Origin: Deefgea tanakiae
GTDB taxonomy: Bacteria; Pseudomonadota; Gammaproteobacteria; Burkholderiales; Chitinibacteraceae
Assembly (NCBI RefSeq): GCF_019665765.1
Contig: NZ_CP081150.1
Span: 992,001-1,056,000 of the forward strand
Reading direction: 5' to 3'
Length of the DNA: 64,000 nucleotides
This document shows positions 1,140 through 38,990 of the stretch, in pieces (positions within the stretch are counted from its first letter, which is position 1; each line of letters opens with the position of its first letter). The notes under the pieces are model-generated. The model was not told where the DNA came from. It ran no database searches and saw only the letters and a program-made list of their open reading frames with translations. The translations under genes were made by a program, and so were the position numbers.

Positions 1140-1291
1140 TTACTGGGCGTTGGCTGCAATTGTGGATGAATGTTTGCGGTGATTGTATTTTTCTATGTGA
1201 TCGATAAAGAATGCCTAATTACGTGGCTTTGATGCGCTAGTCATATTCAAGACAGGTAAGTAAAAACACTTTCGGCTACAATGCGCGCCAT

Positions 1292-1594
1292 TCAAGGTGA
1301 TTTGCCGTGTGAGCGGCGAATTTAAACGGGAAACAGGTTCAAATCCTGTACTGCCCCTGCAACGGTTTTTCAGTGTGGGTTGATCACAAAAAATAAGTTT
1401 AAAAATGCTGTGCATCCCGCTATAGCGGTTCGCGCGGTGCTCGGAGTCCTCATGTACCTGCGTACATTCCGGCTTCTGTGCTCCGGGCTCTCCGCTCTAT
1501 CGGGCGCTCGCTATTTTTAATTCTTATTTTTAGCCACTGTCCATTTGAGATGGGAAGGCGATCAATCAAGTCTGATCAGTCCGGAGACCGGCCT
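1292..1594 (+). ncRNA. Cobalamin riboswitch with an inserted hairpin
   Basis: The conserved B12 aptamer blocks are present in order: AAGGTG near 1294, GGGAAACAGGT at 1328-1338, the CCTGTACTGCCCCTGCAACGGT stretch near 1344-1366, the B12 box GCCACTG at 1533-1539, GGGAAGGCG at 1552-1560, and GTCCGGAGACCGGCC ending near 1593. The RNA lies about 150 bases upstream of btuB and presumably represses btuB and the cob genes behind it when adenosylcobalamin is abundant. The segment between CAACGGT and the B12 box, normally short and variable, holds a 118-base palindrome (1401-1518), which makes the aptamer unusually long. Confidence 0.92.
1401..1518. repeat. Long palindrome inside the cobalamin riboswitch
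   Basis: An imperfect 118-base hairpin. It begins AAAAAT (1401-1406) and ends ATTTTT (1513-1518). Its mid-stem pairs CCCG and TATAGCGG with CCGCTCTATCGGG, and its tip is ATGTAC-CTGC-GTACAT at 1452-1467. The exact centre of the ends and the centre of the tip coincide near 1459-1460. A second palindrome with the same plan is inside cobB (7498-7636). Confidence 0.7.
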
Positions 1595-1743
1595 TGTGTC
1601 AACTCGCGCGTCGAGTTGAATTTTTACGCATGGCAGGGAGGCCGTGGCGGAATACTCTGTATCGTTTTTTACGATGTCGATTTGTTCTGCGCGGTTTCCA
1701 GCTTTAATCGCAATACGCAACGGGCGTATTGCTGGGGAACCTA

Positions 1744-3627
1744 ATGAATATCAGTTTTACCAAATCATACCTACTTGTTTTATCTGCACTCTCAACAATG
1801 CCTGTATTGGCTGAAGTCACGCAACTGGAAGATGTTGTCGTTACGGCGACGCGCATTGCGCAACCCGCCCGTGAAGTGATTGGCGATGTGACGGTGCTCG
1901 ATCGTGAAGCGATTGCTGCGCAAGGTGTGTCGAGTTTGCCAGAAGTCTTGGCTCGTCAGCCAGGGATTCAAATGAGCAGCTCGGGTGGTCCAGGCAAAGC
2001 GACTTCGGTATTTATGCGCGGTACCAACAATGGTCAAACCTTAGTGCTGATTGACGGCATTGTGTATGGTTCGGCGACTTTGGGTAGCGCTTCACTGCAA
2101 AATATTCCAGTGAATCAAATTGAAAGAATTGAGATTTTGCGCGGCCCAGCAGCCAGTCTATATGGCGGTGGTGCAATTGGTGGTGTGATTCAGATTTTCA
2201 CCCGCCAAGGTTCGGCTGGGTTTAAGCCGAGCGTAGAAGTCGGTTACGGCAATTACAATACCATCGACGCTAAAGCATCAGTGGGTGGCGGTAATGACAG
2301 TACGACTTATTCGATGACGGTGGCGCATTTTCAAACCGATGGCACCAATGCGATTGTTAATCCAAAACATACTAGTTTTTACGCAGATGATGATGGTTAT
2401 ACCAACAGCAGTTTATCGTTCTCAGCGCAGCATAAAATCAATCAAGATCATCAAGTCGGCTTAAGCGCTTTGGGCGCTTGGGGTGAAAATCATTACGATG
2501 GCAGTTTTTTGACCAAGTCATACAAAAATGTCGCGCAAAGCTATGACTACCGTGATGAAAGCTTTAACGGTAGCGGTAATGTTTGGCTCAAAACCCAATT
2601 TACACCGAACTGGCAAAGCAAATTGCAAGCGGGCGCTAGTGTGGACGATAGCAAGAGCTACACACCTGTTTCAGAGAAAAACTATGCCGATGTAACGGCC
2701 AAAATTAAAACCCAACAAAACCAACTTTCTTGGATGAACGACGTCAAGATGTTGGGCGGCAATGTGCAATTGGGCTTGGAAACGCTAGAGCAAGAAGTCA
2801 GCGGCGATACGCAATTTGCAGTCGATCATCGCCGCGTCAATAGCGCCTTGGCGGGTTATTTGGCGCATTACGCTGATTTTACGGTGCAATTAAATGGCCG
2901 CAGCGATGACAATTCTCAGTATGGTCGCCAAAACACAGGTACGGTTGGCTTGTCTTACCAAATCAATGATGACTGGGTGATTGGCTCGACGATGGGCACG
3001 GCATTTAAAGCGCCATCGTTTAATGATTTGTATTGGCCAAAGCAAGGCAATCCAAACTTGAAGCCTGAAGATTCAAATAGTAAAGAAGCCTTTATTCGTT
3101 TTGCGACCAACAATTTGAATGCCTCGGTGACCGCTTATTACAACAAAGTGAATAACCTCATCGCTTGGGCGCCAACCTCAACTGGCGTGTGGCTGCCGAG
3201 CAATATTGGTGAAGCTCAGCTCAAAGGCGTTACGCTCACGAGCGATTGGCAATCTGAAATGTATATCGCGGGCTTTAGCTACGATTATTTGAATGCCGAA
3301 GATGCAACTGCGGGCAGCCAAACGAAAGGCAAGCAATTAGCACGTCGCGCGAAAAATTCAGGTTTAGTGTATGCCGGTTTGCAAAGCAAAGTTTGGACTG
3401 CTCGCGTTGAAGTTCAGGCACAAGGTCAGCGCTATAACGATGCTGCCAATAAGCAATCATTGGCAGGTTATGGTTTGACCAATATCGCGGCAAGTTGGCA
3501 GTTTGCTAAAGACTGGTCGCTAAATGCGCGGATTAATAATGTGTTTGATAAAGAATATGAAACCAGTAAAGACTACGGCAATTTGGGCGTGAATGGTTTG
3601 CTCAGCGTGCGCTGGTCACCGAAGTAA
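1744..3627 (+). CDS. btuB: TonB-dependent vitamin B12 receptor BtuB
   Basis: A 627-residue outer-membrane receptor that takes up cobalamin using TonB energy. A signal peptide ends near VLAEV. A TonB box follows (DVVVTATR), then a plug domain with RIEILRGPAASLYGGGAIGGVI, then a barrel ending in the usual aromatic-rich strand (LLSVRWSPK). The ATG at 1744 is chosen because GGGGA stands 6-7 bases upstream; an upstream in-frame codon at 1729 would only add residues before the signal peptide. Placement behind the cobalamin riboswitch and in front of cbiB supports B12 or cobinamide as substrate. The cbiB frame follows with no gap. Confidence 0.93.
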   Translation: MNISFTKSYLLVLSALSTMPVLAEVTQLEDVVVTATRIAQPAREVIGDVTVLDREAIAAQGVSSLPEVLARQPGIQMSSSGGPGKATSVFMRGTNNGQTLVLIDGIVYGSATLGSASLQNIPVNQIERIEILRGPAASLYGGGAIGGVIQIFTRQGSAGFKPSVEVGYGNYNTIDAKASVGGGNDSTTYSMTVAHFQTDGTNAIVNPKHTSFYADDDGYTNSSLSFSAQHKINQDHQVGLSALGAWGENHYDGSFLTKSYKNVAQSYDYRDESFNGSGNVWLKTQFTPNWQSKLQAGASVDDSKSYTPVSEKNYADVTAKIKTQQNQLSWMNDVKMLGGNVQLGLETLEQEVSGDTQFAVDHRRVNSALAGYLAHYADFTVQLNGRSDDNSQYGRQNTGTVGLSYQINDDWVIGSTMGTAFKAPSFNDLYWPKQGNPNLKPEDSNSKEAFIRFATNNLNASVTAYYNKVNNLIAWAPTSTGVWLPSNIGEAQLKGVTLTSDWQSEMYIAGFSYDYLNAEDATAGSQTKGKQLARRAKNSGLVYAGLQSKVWTARVEVQAQGQRYNDAANKQSLAGYGLTNIAASWQFAKDWSLNARINNVFDKEYETSKDYGNLGVNGLLSVRWSPK

Positions 3628-4587
3628 TTGGTTATAAACGCCGTGTTCTTGCTTAATCCACTTACTTTTCTGGCCGCCTTGTTATTCGGGCTGGCCATCG
3701 AGTGGCTGTTCGGCGAGCCACGGCGTTGGCATTTGCTGGTGGGCTTTGGCCGACTCGCAAATGCCATTGAACGTGCAATGAATAAAGGAAGGATAGGTAT
3801 TGCGATGGGGGCTATTTCTGTAATGGTCTTGGTGGTAATACCTATTTTTGCTTTTATGGTGTTGCGAACGTATGCTCAGAGTTGGGCATGGGTTTTAGAT
3901 GGTTTGGCGCTGTGGTTTGCACTCGGCGCAAAAAGTCTGTTTGCGCATGTGCGAGCGATTGCGCAGCCTTTGATGCACGGTGATTTATCAGCGGCTCGAG
4001 TGGCCTTGAGCATGATTGTGAGCCGAGATTGCGCGCAATTGACTGAAACCGAGGTTGCCAAAGGTGCAATCGAATCGAATTTAGAAAACGGCGCCGATGC
4101 GATTTTTGCCACGCTGTTTTGGTTTGCACTATTCGGCGGCGCGGGTGCGCTGCTGCATCGATTGAGCAATACGCTGGACGCAATGTGGGGTTACCGTACG
4201 CCACGCTTTAATGAATTTGGTCGTTTCGCGGCGAGGCTGGATGATGTACTCAATTACATTCCCGCCCGATTGGTAGCGATTTCTTATGCCTTCCTCGGTA
4301 ACACACGGCAAGCGGTGCGAGCTTGGCACACGCAAGCGCCGCTGTGGGACAGCCCGAACGCAGGCCCGGTGATGGCCGCTGGTGCTGGTGCGCTGAGTCT
4401 GACTTTGGGCGGCAATGCGATTTATCACGGCCAAGTCGAGGTGCGCACGCCACTTGGTTTTGGCCCCGCACCGCAAGCGATCGATATTGAGCGCAGCCTT
4501 CGCTTAGTGCAAAAAACACTGGCTCTGTGGCTACTTTCTTGCGTAGCCTTGCCGGTATTGATGTTGTTATTTCAGGAATGGCTATGA
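3628..4587 (+). CDS. cbiB: Adenosylcobinamide-phosphate synthase (CbiB/CobD)
   Basis: An inner-membrane enzyme that attaches aminopropanol (or its phosphate) to adenosylcobyric acid. The length of about 315-319 residues is normal. The N-terminal block NPLTFLAALLFGLAIEWLFG is typical, as are the ESNLENGADAIFATLFW segment and the MWGYRTPRFNEFGRFAARLDD motif. Several hydrophobic helices are present. The start is uncertain: a TTG at 3628 directly follows the btuB stop, and a GTG at 3643 lies closer to where family members usually begin; neither has a good ribosome site, so translation may be coupled to btuB. The 3' end overlaps cobC by ATGA. Confidence 0.92.
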   Translation: MVINAVFLLNPLTFLAALLFGLAIEWLFGEPRRWHLLVGFGRLANAIERAMNKGRIGIAMGAISVMVLVVIPIFAFMVLRTYAQSWAWVLDGLALWFALGAKSLFAHVRAIAQPLMHGDLSAARVALSMIVSRDCAQLTETEVAKGAIESNLENGADAIFATLFWFALFGGAGALLHRLSNTLDAMWGYRTPRFNEFGRFAARLDDVLNYIPARLVAISYAFLGNTRQAVRAWHTQAPLWDSPNAGPVMAAGAGALSLTLGGNAIYHGQVEVRTPLGFGPAPQAIDIERSLRLVQKTLALWLLSCVALPVLMLLFQEWL

Positions 4588-6408: not shown

Positions 6409-7001
6409 ACGCAGAAAAAAACGCCCGTCACGCCGCGCGCATGGCGCGTAAAAAAGCCATTATCGACGCCCACATTGCTGAAGCGAATATCGACACTGGC
6501 ATCATGATTTTGCTGACAGGCAACGGTAAAGGTAAATCATCATCAGCCTTTGGTATGGTCGCGCGCGCTATTGGTCATGGTTTGAAAGTCGGCGTGGTGC
6601 AATTTATCAAAAACCGTACCGACACCGGCGAAGAAGCATTTTTGGGCAAGCATTGCGAATGGCATGTAATGGGAGATGGTTTTACTTGGGAAACGCAAAA
6701 CTTTGAAGCGGACAAAGCCCGCTCAGAAAACGCATGGGCGATGGCGGCACTGATGCTAAATGATCCAAGTTACGACGTGGTGGTGCTCGACGAGCTTACG
6801 TATTGCTTGTCATACAAATACCTCGATAAAGAAACAGTTTTGCACGATTTGGAATCACGCCCCGAGATGCAACACGTCGTCGTCACCGGCCGCGCCGCGA
6901 TTGCCGAGTTGCATGAAATTGCGGATACGGTGACGGTGTTGGGTGATGAAAAACACGCCTACAAGTCGGGTATCAGAGCTCAAAAGGGTTTGGAGTGGTG
7001 A
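6405..7001 (+). CDS. cobO: Cob(I)yrinic acid a,c-diamide adenosyltransferase (CobO/BtuR)
   Basis: A 198-residue cytoplasmic enzyme that transfers the adenosyl group from ATP to the corrinoid cobalt, in both synthesis and salvage. It contains the P-loop TGNGKGKSSSAFG near residue 38 and the VVLDELTYCLSYKYLD motif. The C terminus, IRAQKGLEW, is typical of BtuR/CobO. Length is normal for the family. It overlaps the upstream BtuF-like gene (ATGA) and the downstream cobB gene, so it sits in the middle of a tightly coupled operon. Confidence 0.95.
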   Translation: MNAEKNARHAARMARKKAIIDAHIAEANIDTGIMILLTGNGKGKSSSAFGMVARAIGHGLKVGVVQFIKNRTDTGEEAFLGKHCEWHVMGDGFTWETQNFEADKARSENAWAMAALMLNDPSYDVVVLDELTYCLSYKYLDKETVLHDLESRPEMQHVVVTGRAAIAELHEIADTVTVLGDEKHAYKSGIRAQKGLEW

Positions 7002-8422
7002 GCTGCGCACAGGTATTACTCGTTGCCGCGCCTTCTTCAGGCTCAGGCAAAACCACCATCACTGCGGGCCTCGCTTGGTTGTATCGTCGCCAAGGAAAAC
7101 GCGTCAAAGTCTTTAAATGTGGCCCCGATTTTCTTGATCCCTTGATGCTGGGTTTTGCCAGCGGCGCGCGGGTGGATAATTTGGATTTATGGTTGGTTGG
7201 CGAAGGTTTATGCCGCCAAATGCTCGCCGAGGCTGCGCGCGATTTTGATGTGATTTTGATCGAATCGGTGATGGGTTTATTTGACGGCGAGCCGAGTACG
7301 GCAGACTTGGCGGTGAAATTTGGCTTACCCGTGTTGGCGGTGATTGATGCCGGTGCAATGGCGCAGACCTTTGGCGCGTTGGCGTTTGGCTTGGCACATT
7401 ACCGTGCAGATTTGCCATTTTATGGCGTGCTCGCTAATAAAGTGGCGGGCGAGCGGCATGCGCAGATGCTGCAGGAATCAGTACAATTCCTGAGCAAGGA
7501 GCGCGAGAGTGCGTCGCGAGCCATTTGCGGGCAAGAAAAATCCGCAGCGAAAACTGAGATAGTACAAGAAGTACAGCGAAGTTTGAGCGAGGATTTGACG
7601 CAGCCAGCGAATGGCGCAGTAGCTCTATCGCGCTCCGTTTGGATGGGGTGGGTGGGTAAAGTCGAACCACTGCCCGAGCGGCATTTGGGCTTGGCGCTGC
7701 CTGAAGAAATTCCTGATTTAGCCGCCAAACTCGATGCGGTGGCTGATGCGCTGGCTAGCCAGCCGATTGCGCACTTGCAATCAAATGTTGAATTTTCCGC
7801 GCCGATTTCGAACGACATTCAGCCATTGCTGGCGGGTAAACGAATTGCGATTGCGCGTGATGCGGCGTTTTGCTTTATTTATCCGGCTAATTTAGCGTGT
7901 TTAACCGCCTTGGGTGCGGAACTGAAATTTTTCTCGCCGCTGGCGCATGAGTCTTTGCCCGAGTGCGATGCGTTGTGGTTGCCCGGTGGCTATCCTGAAC
8001 TCCACGCTGACTCGCTGGCCGCGCATCCGACTATTTGCGCGGAACTGGCGCAGCATGTGGCAGTGGGTAAGCCGATCTGGGCTGAGTGCGGTGGCATGCT
8101 GGCGCTGTGCGAGAGCCTGACTTTAGTGGATGGTTCTGTCAAACCGATGTGGGGTTTGTTGCCTGCGCAAGCGGCGATGCAAACGCGCTTGGCCGCGCTG
8201 GGTGCGCAAAGTTTTAATCTAGGGGAAGGAGACGTTCGTGGCCATACTTTCCATTACTCCAAGCTCAGTACGACATTGACGCCAGTTGGGTATGGCTCGC
8301 CATGCCGCTTAGGCTCTAGTGGTGAAGCACTATACAAGCATGGGTATATTAAGGCCTCTTATATTCACGGCTGGTTTATGAGCCATCCTGCGGCGACGGC
8401 TGCTTTGTTTGGTGCGGTTTAA
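6995..8422 (+). CDS. cobB: Cobyrinic acid a,c-diamide synthase (CobB/CbiA) with in-frame repeat insertion
   Basis: A glutamine-dependent amidotransferase that amidates the a and c carboxylates of cobyrinate. The N-terminal P-loop domain has APSSGSGKTTITAGL and FKCGPDFLDP. The C-terminal class I glutaminase domain has LPGGYPELH and the nucleophile cysteine in WAECGGMLALCE. It starts at GTG 6995 or GTG 6998; the latter gives a GTGA overlap with cobO. At 475 residues it is somewhat longer than usual. About 50 extra residues between MLQESV and WVGKVEPLPERHLGL coincide with a 139-base palindrome (7498-7636), so the extra peptide is probably repeat-encoded. Confidence 0.93.
   Translation: MVSCAQVLLVAAPSSGSGKTTITAGLAWLYRRQGKRVKVFKCGPDFLDPLMLGFASGARVDNLDLWLVGEGLCRQMLAEAARDFDVILIESVMGLFDGEPSTADLAVKFGLPVLAVIDAGAMAQTFGALAFGLAHYRADLPFYGVLANKVAGERHAQMLQESVQFLSKERESASRAICGQEKSAAKTEIVQEVQRSLSEDLTQPANGAVALSRSVWMGWVGKVEPLPERHLGLALPEEIPDLAAKLDAVADALASQPIAHLQSNVEFSAPISNDIQPLLAGKRIAIARDAAFCFIYPANLACLTALGAELKFFSPLAHESLPECDALWLPGGYPELHADSLAAHPTICAELAQHVAVGKPIWAECGGMLALCESLTLVDGSVKPMWGLLPAQAAMQTRLAALGAQSFNLGEGDVRGHTFHYSKLSTTLTPVGYGSPCRLGSSGEALYKHGYIKASYIHGWFMSHPAATAALFGAV
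7498..7636. repeat. Palindromic element inserted in frame within cobB
   Basis: The ends GGAGCGCGA (7498-7506) and TCGCGCTCC (7628-7636) are a perfect 9-base inverted repeat. Further pairing runs inward (GCCATTTGC against GCGAATGGC, AAATCC against GGATTT, AAACT against AGTTT). The tip is GTAC-AAGAA-GTAC at 7562-7574, symmetric with the ends. The plan matches the hairpin inside the riboswitch (GTAC-4-GTAC tip, CTCTATCG near one end). Confidence 0.75.
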
Positions 8423-37770: not shown

Positions 37771-38091
37771 ATGAAGAAATCAACTCACTTTTCCCCCGAA
37801 GTCCGCGAACGGGCTGTTCGCATGGTCATTGAGCACCTTGCCGAATATCCATCTGAATGGGCAACCCTCGTTTCAATTGCCAGCAAAATAGGCTGCACGC
37901 CAGAAACGCTGCGCACATGGTGCCGTCGGCAAGGTGGCGATACCGTTCAAGCCAACAAAAATTCAGCAGAGAACGAACGCATTAAAGCGCTAGAACGCGA
38001 AGTGCGCGAACTTAAAAAAGCCAACGAAATTCTGCGACTGGCCAGCGCGTATTTCGCACAGGCGGAGCTCGACCGCCGCTTGAAATCGTAA
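37771..38091 (+). CDS. IS3-family transposase OrfA
   Basis: A 106-residue protein of the IS3 OrfA type. An N-terminal helix-turn-helix ([36 protein letters not shown]) for end binding is followed by a leucine-zipper-like helix ([34 protein letters not shown]). It ends in the region overlapping the start of the orfB frame, which is one base behind. A run of six A then G at 38014-38020 is present, though its phase with orfA is not the classic slippery heptamer, so the exact frameshift site is unclear. Confidence 0.92.
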
Positions 38092-38093
38092 GA

Positions 38094-38990
38094 GGATTCA
38101 TCGATACCCACCGTGAGCAGCACGGGGTCGAGCCGATCTGCAAGCTATTACAGGTCGCCCCGTCAGCCTATCGACGTTATGTCGCTCGGCTGCGCAATCC
38201 AGCGTTGCGTTGTCAGCGTACCATTCGTGATGAGCAACTGAGCGGTGAAATTGAGCGTGTCTGGCAATTGAATCATCAGGTGTACGGGGCGGTAAAAGTA
38301 TGGCGGCAGCTCAAGCGAGATGGACATACTGTGGCGCGCTGTACCGTTGAACGCTTGATGCGAAGCCTCGGTTTACGCGGCGTATCGCGTGGCAAAGCGG
38401 TGCGAACGACACGTCCCGATCCTGCCGTTGCTTGCCCACGCGATCATGTGAATCGTCAATTCGTAGCCGAACGACCGAATCAACTCTGGGTGTCGGATTT
38501 TACCTACGTGTCGACTTGGCAAGGCTTTGTCTATGTAGCTTTTGTGATCGATGTTTTTGCTCGTTATATCGTGGGCTGGCGAGTGAGTCGCAGCATGCAC
38601 ACTGAGTTTGTGCTGGATGCGTTGGAGCAAGCCCTTTGGGCGCGGCAACCAGAGCGTGAGGCCTTGATTCATCACAGCGACCGAGGTTCGCAATATGTTT
38701 CGATTCGCTACACCGAACGATTGACTGAAGCTGGCATCGAGCCATCCGTTGGCACGACCGGTGATAGTTACGACAATGCATTAGCAGAGACGATTAACGG
38801 GCTCTACAAAACAGAAGTGACTCACCGTTTGGGACCTTGGAAAAGTCTAGAATCCGTGGAACTAGCGACATTGGAATGGGTTTCGTGGTTCAATCAGCAT
38901 CGTTTGCTGGGGTCGATTGGCCACATTCCACCCGCGGAAGCAGAGGCAAACTATTATCGTAATCAAAGCGAGCAGGCCGTGTTGGTCTGA
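38094..38990 (+). CDS. IS3-family transposase OrfB (DDE integrase)
   Basis: The catalytic part of the IS3 transposase, in the -1 frame relative to orfA and expected to be made as an OrfAB fusion by programmed frameshifting. The start given is only where the frame clears orfA; there is no in-frame ATG nearby. It reads FIDTHREQHGVEPICKLLQV, then YGAVKVWRQLKRDG. The DDE core has the acidic residues in LWVSDFTYV, LIHHSDRGSQYV and NALAETINGLYKTE. It ends HIPPAEAEANYY just inside the right terminal repeat. Confidence 0.92.
   Translation, partial: GFIDTHREQHGVEPICKLLQVAPSAYRRYVARLRNPALRCQRTIRDEQLSGEIERVWQLNHQVYGAVKVWRQLKRDGHTVARCTVERLMRSLGLRGVSRGKAVRTTRPDPAVACPRDHVNRQFVAERPNQLWVSDFTYVSTWQGFVYVAFVIDVFARYIVGWRVSRSMHTEFVLDALEQALWARQPEREALIHHSDRGSQYVSIRYTERLTEAGIEPSVGTTGDSYDNALAETINGLYKTEVTHRLGPWKSLESVELATLEWVSWFNQHRLLGSIGHIPPAEAEANYYRNQSEQAVLV

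Follow-up and report, generated by a model that had tools for sequence, protein, structure and literature searches.

The cobB locus

The window analyzed here, i.e. the whole stretch of DNA at its full length of 64 kb, belongs to the complete genome of Deefgea tanakiae (3.56 Mb). The following features are of concern, with R1, R2 and R3 denoting covariance models that are described further below.

1278..1610, plus strand: cobalamin riboswitch (Rfam RF00174, 57.4 bits), which contains the element at 1399-1520
1399..1520, plus strand: member of the palindrome family, about 120 nt, matched by R1 (built with it), R2 and R3
6995..8422, plus strand: cobB (cobyrinic acid a,c-diamide synthase), an intact ORF of 475 aa with an in-frame insertion
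7481..7639, plus strand: coding stretch unlike the orthologs (V...V between QES and WMGW), from alignments and a split match in congeners
7498..7636, no strand assigned: imperfect palindrome of 139 nt, from its arms and from folding compared with shuffles
7507..7627, minus strand: stretch that matches R2 and R3 from their first to their last position

The CobB protein was recognized by the NCBIfam model NF002204 with 382 bits (cut-off 254) and harbors the Pfam domains CbiA (residues 9-168) and GATase_3 (residues 283-464). The closest relative of this protein, with 81% in its best segment, is that of Deefgea chitinilytica; other Deefgea and Chitinibacter species follow. Close relatives align as QES, five residues and W at the place of interest, and where relatives in Deefgea, Chitinibacter and Iodobacter have 5 codons the gene studied here has 53, so that the net excess from QES to WMGWVGK is 48 residues (144 bp). 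The match is interrupted at this insert in all six other Deefgea genomes, stopping at query residue 163 or 164 and restarting at 214 or 215, and the insert is absent from all 15 aligned relatives, a set that overlaps the six congeners. A few distant relatives have some ten additional residues of their own near the same place. Judging from these alignments, the insertion is private to D. tanakiae among the genomes compared. An earlier reading, made from the letters of the window only (the sequence-only reading), had described about 50 extra residues that coincide with a palindrome, had taken the frame to be intact on either side, and had placed the peptide between the P-loop domain and the linker that precedes the glutaminase domain. 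The net excess and the uninterrupted ORF bear out the extra residues and the intact frame.

The palindrome itself is present at 7498-7636 as that reading had described it, with perfect 9-nt ends (GGAGCGCGA/TCGCGCTCC) and the tip GTAC-AAGAA-GTAC. Its arms, 7498-7512 and 7622-7636, are 15 nt long and 87% complementary, and the stretch 7478-7656, i.e. the palindrome with 20 bases on each side, folds better than 200 out of 200 dinucleotide shuffles (z -3.8 as DNA and -3.6 as RNA). The modeled core at 7507-7627, the conserved orientation of which is antisense to the gene, leaves the outermost 9-bp stem just beyond its limits. An apical duplication (TCAAATCCTCGC beside TCAAACTTCGC) was considered and rejected, since the nearest copies align colinearly, with the extra bases elsewhere in the stem.

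Several observations at the site itself would agree with an alternative by which CobB of this species has expanded a loop that is palindromic by chance and unrelated to any repeat family, e.g. through quasi-palindrome-templated errors. BLAST of the palindrome against its own genome returned only the palindrome, with no second copy at E 0.001, and no direct repeat above chance was found at the junctions, the longest being 5 nt, which 78% of random pairs equal. At the left junction (window 7472-7492) there is, in addition, a short inverted repeat, CAGGAAT-7-ATTCCTG, of the kind left by templated errors; it is perhaps the trace of such an error during or after insertion. Because no direct repeat stands out and five original codons at the junction have been altered, the insertion step at cobB is one that we infer. 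The evidence that decides on this alternative comes from the comparison with other copies, given below.

A family of palindromes in Deefgea

The sequence-only reading had pointed to a further palindrome at 1401-1518, and covariance models show that this hairpin represents a genome-wide family to which the cobB palindrome can be connected by models built without it. With the E limit set at 10, a BLAST search with 1401-1518 against the genome gave 14 rows. All but one had E 1.6e-5 or lower, and among these 13 a single copy accounts for two, each being a piece of it. Nine of the 14 rows, 1399-1520 included, were used for alignment A3 and model R1. Free structure prediction on A3 yielded 43 pairs, with compensatory changes in 17, and R1 found copies in all seven Deefgea genomes, the own genome included. 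Consisting of nine riboswitch-type copies, R1 alone was too narrow, and broader models were needed to recognize the cobB copy. Alignment A5 and model R2 comprise 36 matches from 30 fetched loci, with cobB and the main-family loci having opposite-strand hits left out. In A5, 87.0% of the cells are paired, a share that falls to 62.4% on shuffling and to 48.1% or less on sliding, and both partners have changed in 39 out of 43 pairs; these figures come from an alignment that was fitted to the structure and therefore leans towards it. For alignment A7 and model R3, 40 loci supplied 44 matches; cobB and the two copies inside other genes (L202 and L262) that are treated below were excluded.

With R2 at E up to 1, the seven Deefgea genomes gave 92 rows, corresponding to at least 90 distinct places (two rows being opposite-strand repeats), weak ones such as G005:C1:897433 at E 0.144 included. 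Nineteen of these 90 places are in the D. tanakiae genome, and the number of R2 matches per Deefgea genome ranges from 6 to 23. R3 gave 88 rows in the Deefgea genomes at E up to 0.5. At the level of the class, at least 47 out of 143 sampled genomes, again including the own genome, have a family match at E 1e-6. As no more than 150 first-look candidates per genome were scored in the genus scan, and no more than 24 in the class scan, these counts may be low.

On the model strand the family core reads approximately ..GGCTGCG..AAATCCTCaTgTAC-N3-5-GTAcAtTcCGGTTT..CTCGCTA.., within a unit of about 120 nt that has terminal inverted repeats and becomes longer with its outer ends, e.g. AAGAGTGCG..CGCACTCTT in L115. 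Some loci deviate from the single unit. Tandem arrays of four, three and three palindromes occur in G002, G004 and G006, respectively (L153, L154 and L155, around 3640-4200), between what by eye are gspG-like and gspH-like genes and traversed by ORFs of 131-145 aa; the flank-matched counterparts are single in G000 (D. tanakiae), G001 (D. chitinilytica) and G005 and two in tandem in G003. In L118 of D. tanakiae (1501-1676), about 53 extra bases are found near the tip relative to L127 of D. chitinilytica (1501-1623), which has the same flanks, as if something had been inserted into the element. L194 of G000 (1505-1648) and L198 of G002 (1564-1705) have in common about 20 extra bases in mid-stem, GCTAGCT[G/A]TGCACTTGCT...

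The cobB palindrome was scored by all three models. R1 gave a marginal result (7.1 bits, E 0.22), its best match there having limits that held to within one base. R2 gave 24.0 bits, with E 2.5e-6 in the gene (filters off), 1.1e-4 in the window and 0.006 in the genome, and R3 gave 36.3 bits, with E 3.9e-7 in the window and 2.2e-5 in the genome, all of these being E-values that are rough for models of this kind. Using default filters and E up to 10, both R2 and R3 reported nothing in the 64-kb window except 1399-1520 and the cobB copy, which is the lowest scorer in this genome with either model. Any palindrome might gain from a base-paired model, and a comparison by sequence was therefore made as well. 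The mean of the five best Smith-Waterman scores against the A5 members was 60.8, a value reached by none of 400 pair-preserving shuffles (mean 36.3, sd 3.8, maximum 51.9). The opposite strand scored 35.2, so that the similarity is strand-specific, and 167 out of 168 fetched copies are closer to the minus strand of the cobB palindrome than to its plus strand. A sequence-only profile HMM responded weakly (1.3 bits, with 3 of 2000 shuffles as high), which can be added to the points in favor of a chance palindrome in an expanded loop. Against that alternative stand the end-to-end match on one strand by models built without cobB, the similarity above all shuffles, and the agreement on strand among nearly all copies; it is strongly disfavored, and we consider it very improbable. 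The cobB palindrome is established as a member of the Deefgea family.

Copies inside other genes

The clearest case of mobility is a glycosyltransferase gene in D. chitinilytica (L202, 1186-2430), the product of which has the domains Glyco_transf_4 and Glycos_transf_1. It contains 41 extra in-frame residues, at 116-156, that are missing in all six other Deefgea genomes. The inserted DNA, 123 bp long, has the 6-bp direct repeat CGGGTG at either end, where the relatives show one CGGGTG only (exact or with one substitution), i.e. an empty site. Among the loci, such a direct repeat was seen at this copy alone. The insertion at cobB would likewise have come about by transposition, the empty site together with a direct repeat having been observed at the glycosyltransferase copy only. 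A second parallel case is L262 (G059), where a copy lies in frame inside the conserved gene rlmKL and, between the two stretches that match, 51 residues are found versus 13 in the solved RlmL structure 3v8v, which we take to be the E. coli protein.

In total, copies in frame within conserved genes were found at 2 of the 90 Deefgea places, namely L202 and cobB. The count of copies inside genes that the sequence-only reading had called for thus shows that such copies exist and are a small minority. An insertion was counted only where the gene shows conservation both before and after the copy. The check for spanning ORFs covered 86 of the 90 places; the four outside it were cobB, which was counted separately, G006:C31:148, and one copy in each of two arrays (the third in G006, the fourth in G002). 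Several candidates were discarded: L150, L120 and L124 appear by eye to precede the likely start, the ORFs at L113/L145 and others were judged by eye to be spurious, and the array ORFs of L153-L155 fall between gene neighbors. Out of 82 copies from other families of the class, eight had a spanning ORF with at least 30 residues on each side; L262 was tested further and the other seven were judged by eye.

The model strand is antisense to the gene in all three in-gene copies (cobB, L202 and L262), which are too few for a claim. Stop-free frames number 79 in sense versus 49 in antisense for the 86 Deefgea copies, and 112 versus 65 for the 82 class copies.

Copies at cobalamin loci

The copy at 1399-1520 is located within a cobalamin riboswitch, downstream of which an ORF at 1729-3627 resembles, by eye, a TonB-dependent receptor. 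In place of this copy, the D. chitinilytica riboswitch (L173, 1617-2004) shows a far shorter sequence whose ends are similar, and it has a full copy of its own in another loop (near window 1541-1548), where the D. tanakiae riboswitch has none. It is still above the Rfam cut-off, at 52.6 bits versus the 57.4 bits of the riboswitch in the window. No clear direct repeat was found at the D. chitinilytica riboswitch copy.

In G003 and G005 (L167 1624-1753 and L168 1536-1665), a family copy adjoins the apparent end of cobO, as seen by eye, about 1 kb before cobB, so that cobalamin genes of Deefgea have been hit several times. Elsewhere in the window, at 38046-38162, there is an ALIL pseudoknot (RF01497, 110 bits), a frameshift signal of IS3-type insertion sequences.

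Consequences for the CobB protein

Outside the insert, the comparison of cobB with its D. chitinilytica ortholog gave a dN/dS of 0.08 over 423 codons. The gene as a whole is thus under purifying selection, by a measure that averages over time and does not distinguish the periods before and after the insertion. Lineage-specific residue changes amount to 11 in D. tanakiae versus 8 on the D. chitinilytica lineage. An AlphaFold2 model based on 31 sequences (mean pLDDT 87.6, pTM 0.84) has a helix at 153-179 and a second helix at 187-201, with the blocks of residues 181-210 at pLDDT 47-59, which fits a flexible excursion between two domains in the predicted structure. A sequence search of the PDB with CobB gave nothing at E 0.001.

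Insertions of some 50 residues are often harmful to enzymes, and since the whole-gene dN/dS also averages in the time before the insertion, the copy might have broken the enzyme, leaving a gene that is heading for loss. The ORF and its domains are intact, however, residues have changed little faster than on the D. chitinilytica lineage, and this is the sole cobB in the genome, amid neighboring cobalamin-type genes that by eye have open frames; the loss of function is for these reasons improbable. That CobB tolerates the insert is suggested, if indirectly, by the intact single-copy gene, by purifying selection and by the low confidence of the modeled region. The insert would lie on the surface of the protein, and the enzyme would still work.

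A third alternative goes further than tolerance and regards the insert as an adaptive, functional part of CobB that is kept by selection, as a regulatory or assembly peptide or as an mRNA hairpin that tunes translation. The frame has stayed open in a diverged copy, and the hairpin is still predicted in the mRNA (z -3.6). Furthermore, the copies at L202 and L262 have the peptide VHEDGEQR in common, and so use the same reading frame, a phase that also applies to the second arm of the tip in cobB. These points are countered by the hosts being unrelated proteins (CobB, the glycosyltransferase and RlmKL) with one case each, and by the low AlphaFold2 confidence across the insert. Moreover, an open frame is needed in any surviving gene and is thus no sign of adaptation. 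We give this alternative little credence.

In all probability, then, the cobB palindrome is a diverged copy of a MITE-like family that was inserted in frame in the lineage of this species and has been tolerated, with the gene being maintained. The element would be a non-autonomous, MITE-like palindrome with a core of about 120 nt and outer inverted ends, moved by a transposase acting in trans; its copies are dispersed through the Deefgea genomes and found widely across the class. Having entered cobB in the lineage of D. tanakiae, it would have preserved the frame through its length and small changes at the junctions. It would now encode some 50 mostly polar residues, which would extend a predicted helix located between the synthetase part and the glutaminase part, seemingly without stopping the gene from being maintained.

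Comparison with known systems

The sequence-only reading had likened the palindrome to the RPEs of Rickettsia, reportedly described by Ogata et al. 2000/2002, as a mobile hairpin that adds a peptide to an enzyme. This idea is supported by the models built without cobB and by the relatives with an empty place. RPEs are described, in passages of PMC2229807 and PMC10969869, as palindromes of about 105-150 nt with a long stem-loop, lying within and between genes, some of them in frame in conserved genes, and as being found also in tmRNA and M1 RNA. As far as these passages go, the Deefgea family is alike in being a palindrome of 100-150 nt with several dispersed copies and a long stem-loop, in its in-frame copies in unrelated conserved genes (cobB, the glycosyltransferase gene and rlmKL), and in its presence in a riboswitch where RPEs are found in RNA genes. 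It differs in belonging to another bacterial group and in having 2 of 90 copies inside conserved genes in Deefgea, whereas nearly half of the RPEs of R. conorii are in ORFs according to a passage of PMC10969869. On our best reading, the Deefgea family may be said to work like RPEs; the comparison is one of descriptions and makes no claim of membership in, or descent from, any of the ten described RPE families.

Bacterial MITEs such as Correia/NEMIS, ERIC and YPAL, as portrayed in parts of PMC2229807 and PMC10969869, are likewise short, with inverted ends, a stem-loop and some in-frame fusions. The Deefgea family adds to this likeness the 6-bp direct repeat, at one locus only, and differs in being without a known parent insertion sequence or shared ends. 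REPs, in the relevant parts of PMC3733652, are units of 20-40 bp with GTAG or CGTC tags, and outside Rickettsia intragenic REPs are located in genes for known proteins, e.g. in O. terrae and in uvrA of Thioalkalivibrio. REP/RAYT systems, thus characterized, resemble the Deefgea family in being palindromic repeats that sometimes lie within genes for known proteins, but the Deefgea unit is about 120 nt instead of 20-40 bp, and no constant tag, GTAG/CGTC or other, was seen by eye in the aligned copies. A search for Y1_Tnp (PF01797) gave no match in the own genome at E 0.001, the control being positive in 5 of 14 named genomes, which speaks against a RAYT route; mobilization by RAYTs is accordingly disfavored.

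Among Rfam families, sX9 (RF02228), a Xanthomonas sRNA, has a consensus that by eye corresponds to the tip and the 3' half of the Deefgea palindrome. Its cut-off of 44 was passed by L119 (47.3 bits), one of nine Deefgea loci, and by L232 (51.6 bits), one of 20 further loci, with weaker matches, below the cut-off, in L113, L109 and L110. No sX9 match was found in the window at the gathering cut-off, nor in L001, which has the cobB copy, at E up to 5. The difference is that sX9 is filed as a small RNA gene and that the other loci tested, as well as the cobB copy, are below its cut-off. Among annotated bacterial sRNAs, sX9 ranks with the most prevalent in one survey (PMC9029176), which is as expected of a repeat.

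Implications

A wider picture, possible although on balance somewhat doubtful, would be that of an ancient superfamily of palindromes of about 120 nt across beta- and gamma-proteobacteria, moved by a transposase, which decorates proteins and riboswitches and, preferentially in one gene orientation and one frame, gives polar inserts in biosynthetic and housekeeping enzymes. To our knowledge, such a superfamily is known in print only through the sRNA label sX9.

Among the papers listed in searches of the open-licence PMC literature, none was found to present the Deefgea family as a mobile palindrome. The palindrome family is new, while the kind of element, i.e. an in-frame palindromic insert, is already known; the Rickettsia cases are the most familiar, and shorter intragenic REPs have been reported from other bacteria (PMC3733652). 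What the cobB case provides is an element of about 120 nt, from a non-Rickettsia family, in a biosynthetic enzyme that the genome encodes once; the site is empty in sister species, and two other genes provide parallels. The pairs of enzymes with and without the insert (CobB, the glycosyltransferase and RlmKL), together with the riboswitches with and without it, offer tests of whether a hairpin is tolerated or put to use. Lastly, the findings suggest that sX9, an abundant 'sRNA' family of Rfam, is a mobile repeat at least in part, and its high prevalence may stem from this and not from an sRNA gene; if true, this would affect genome annotation.
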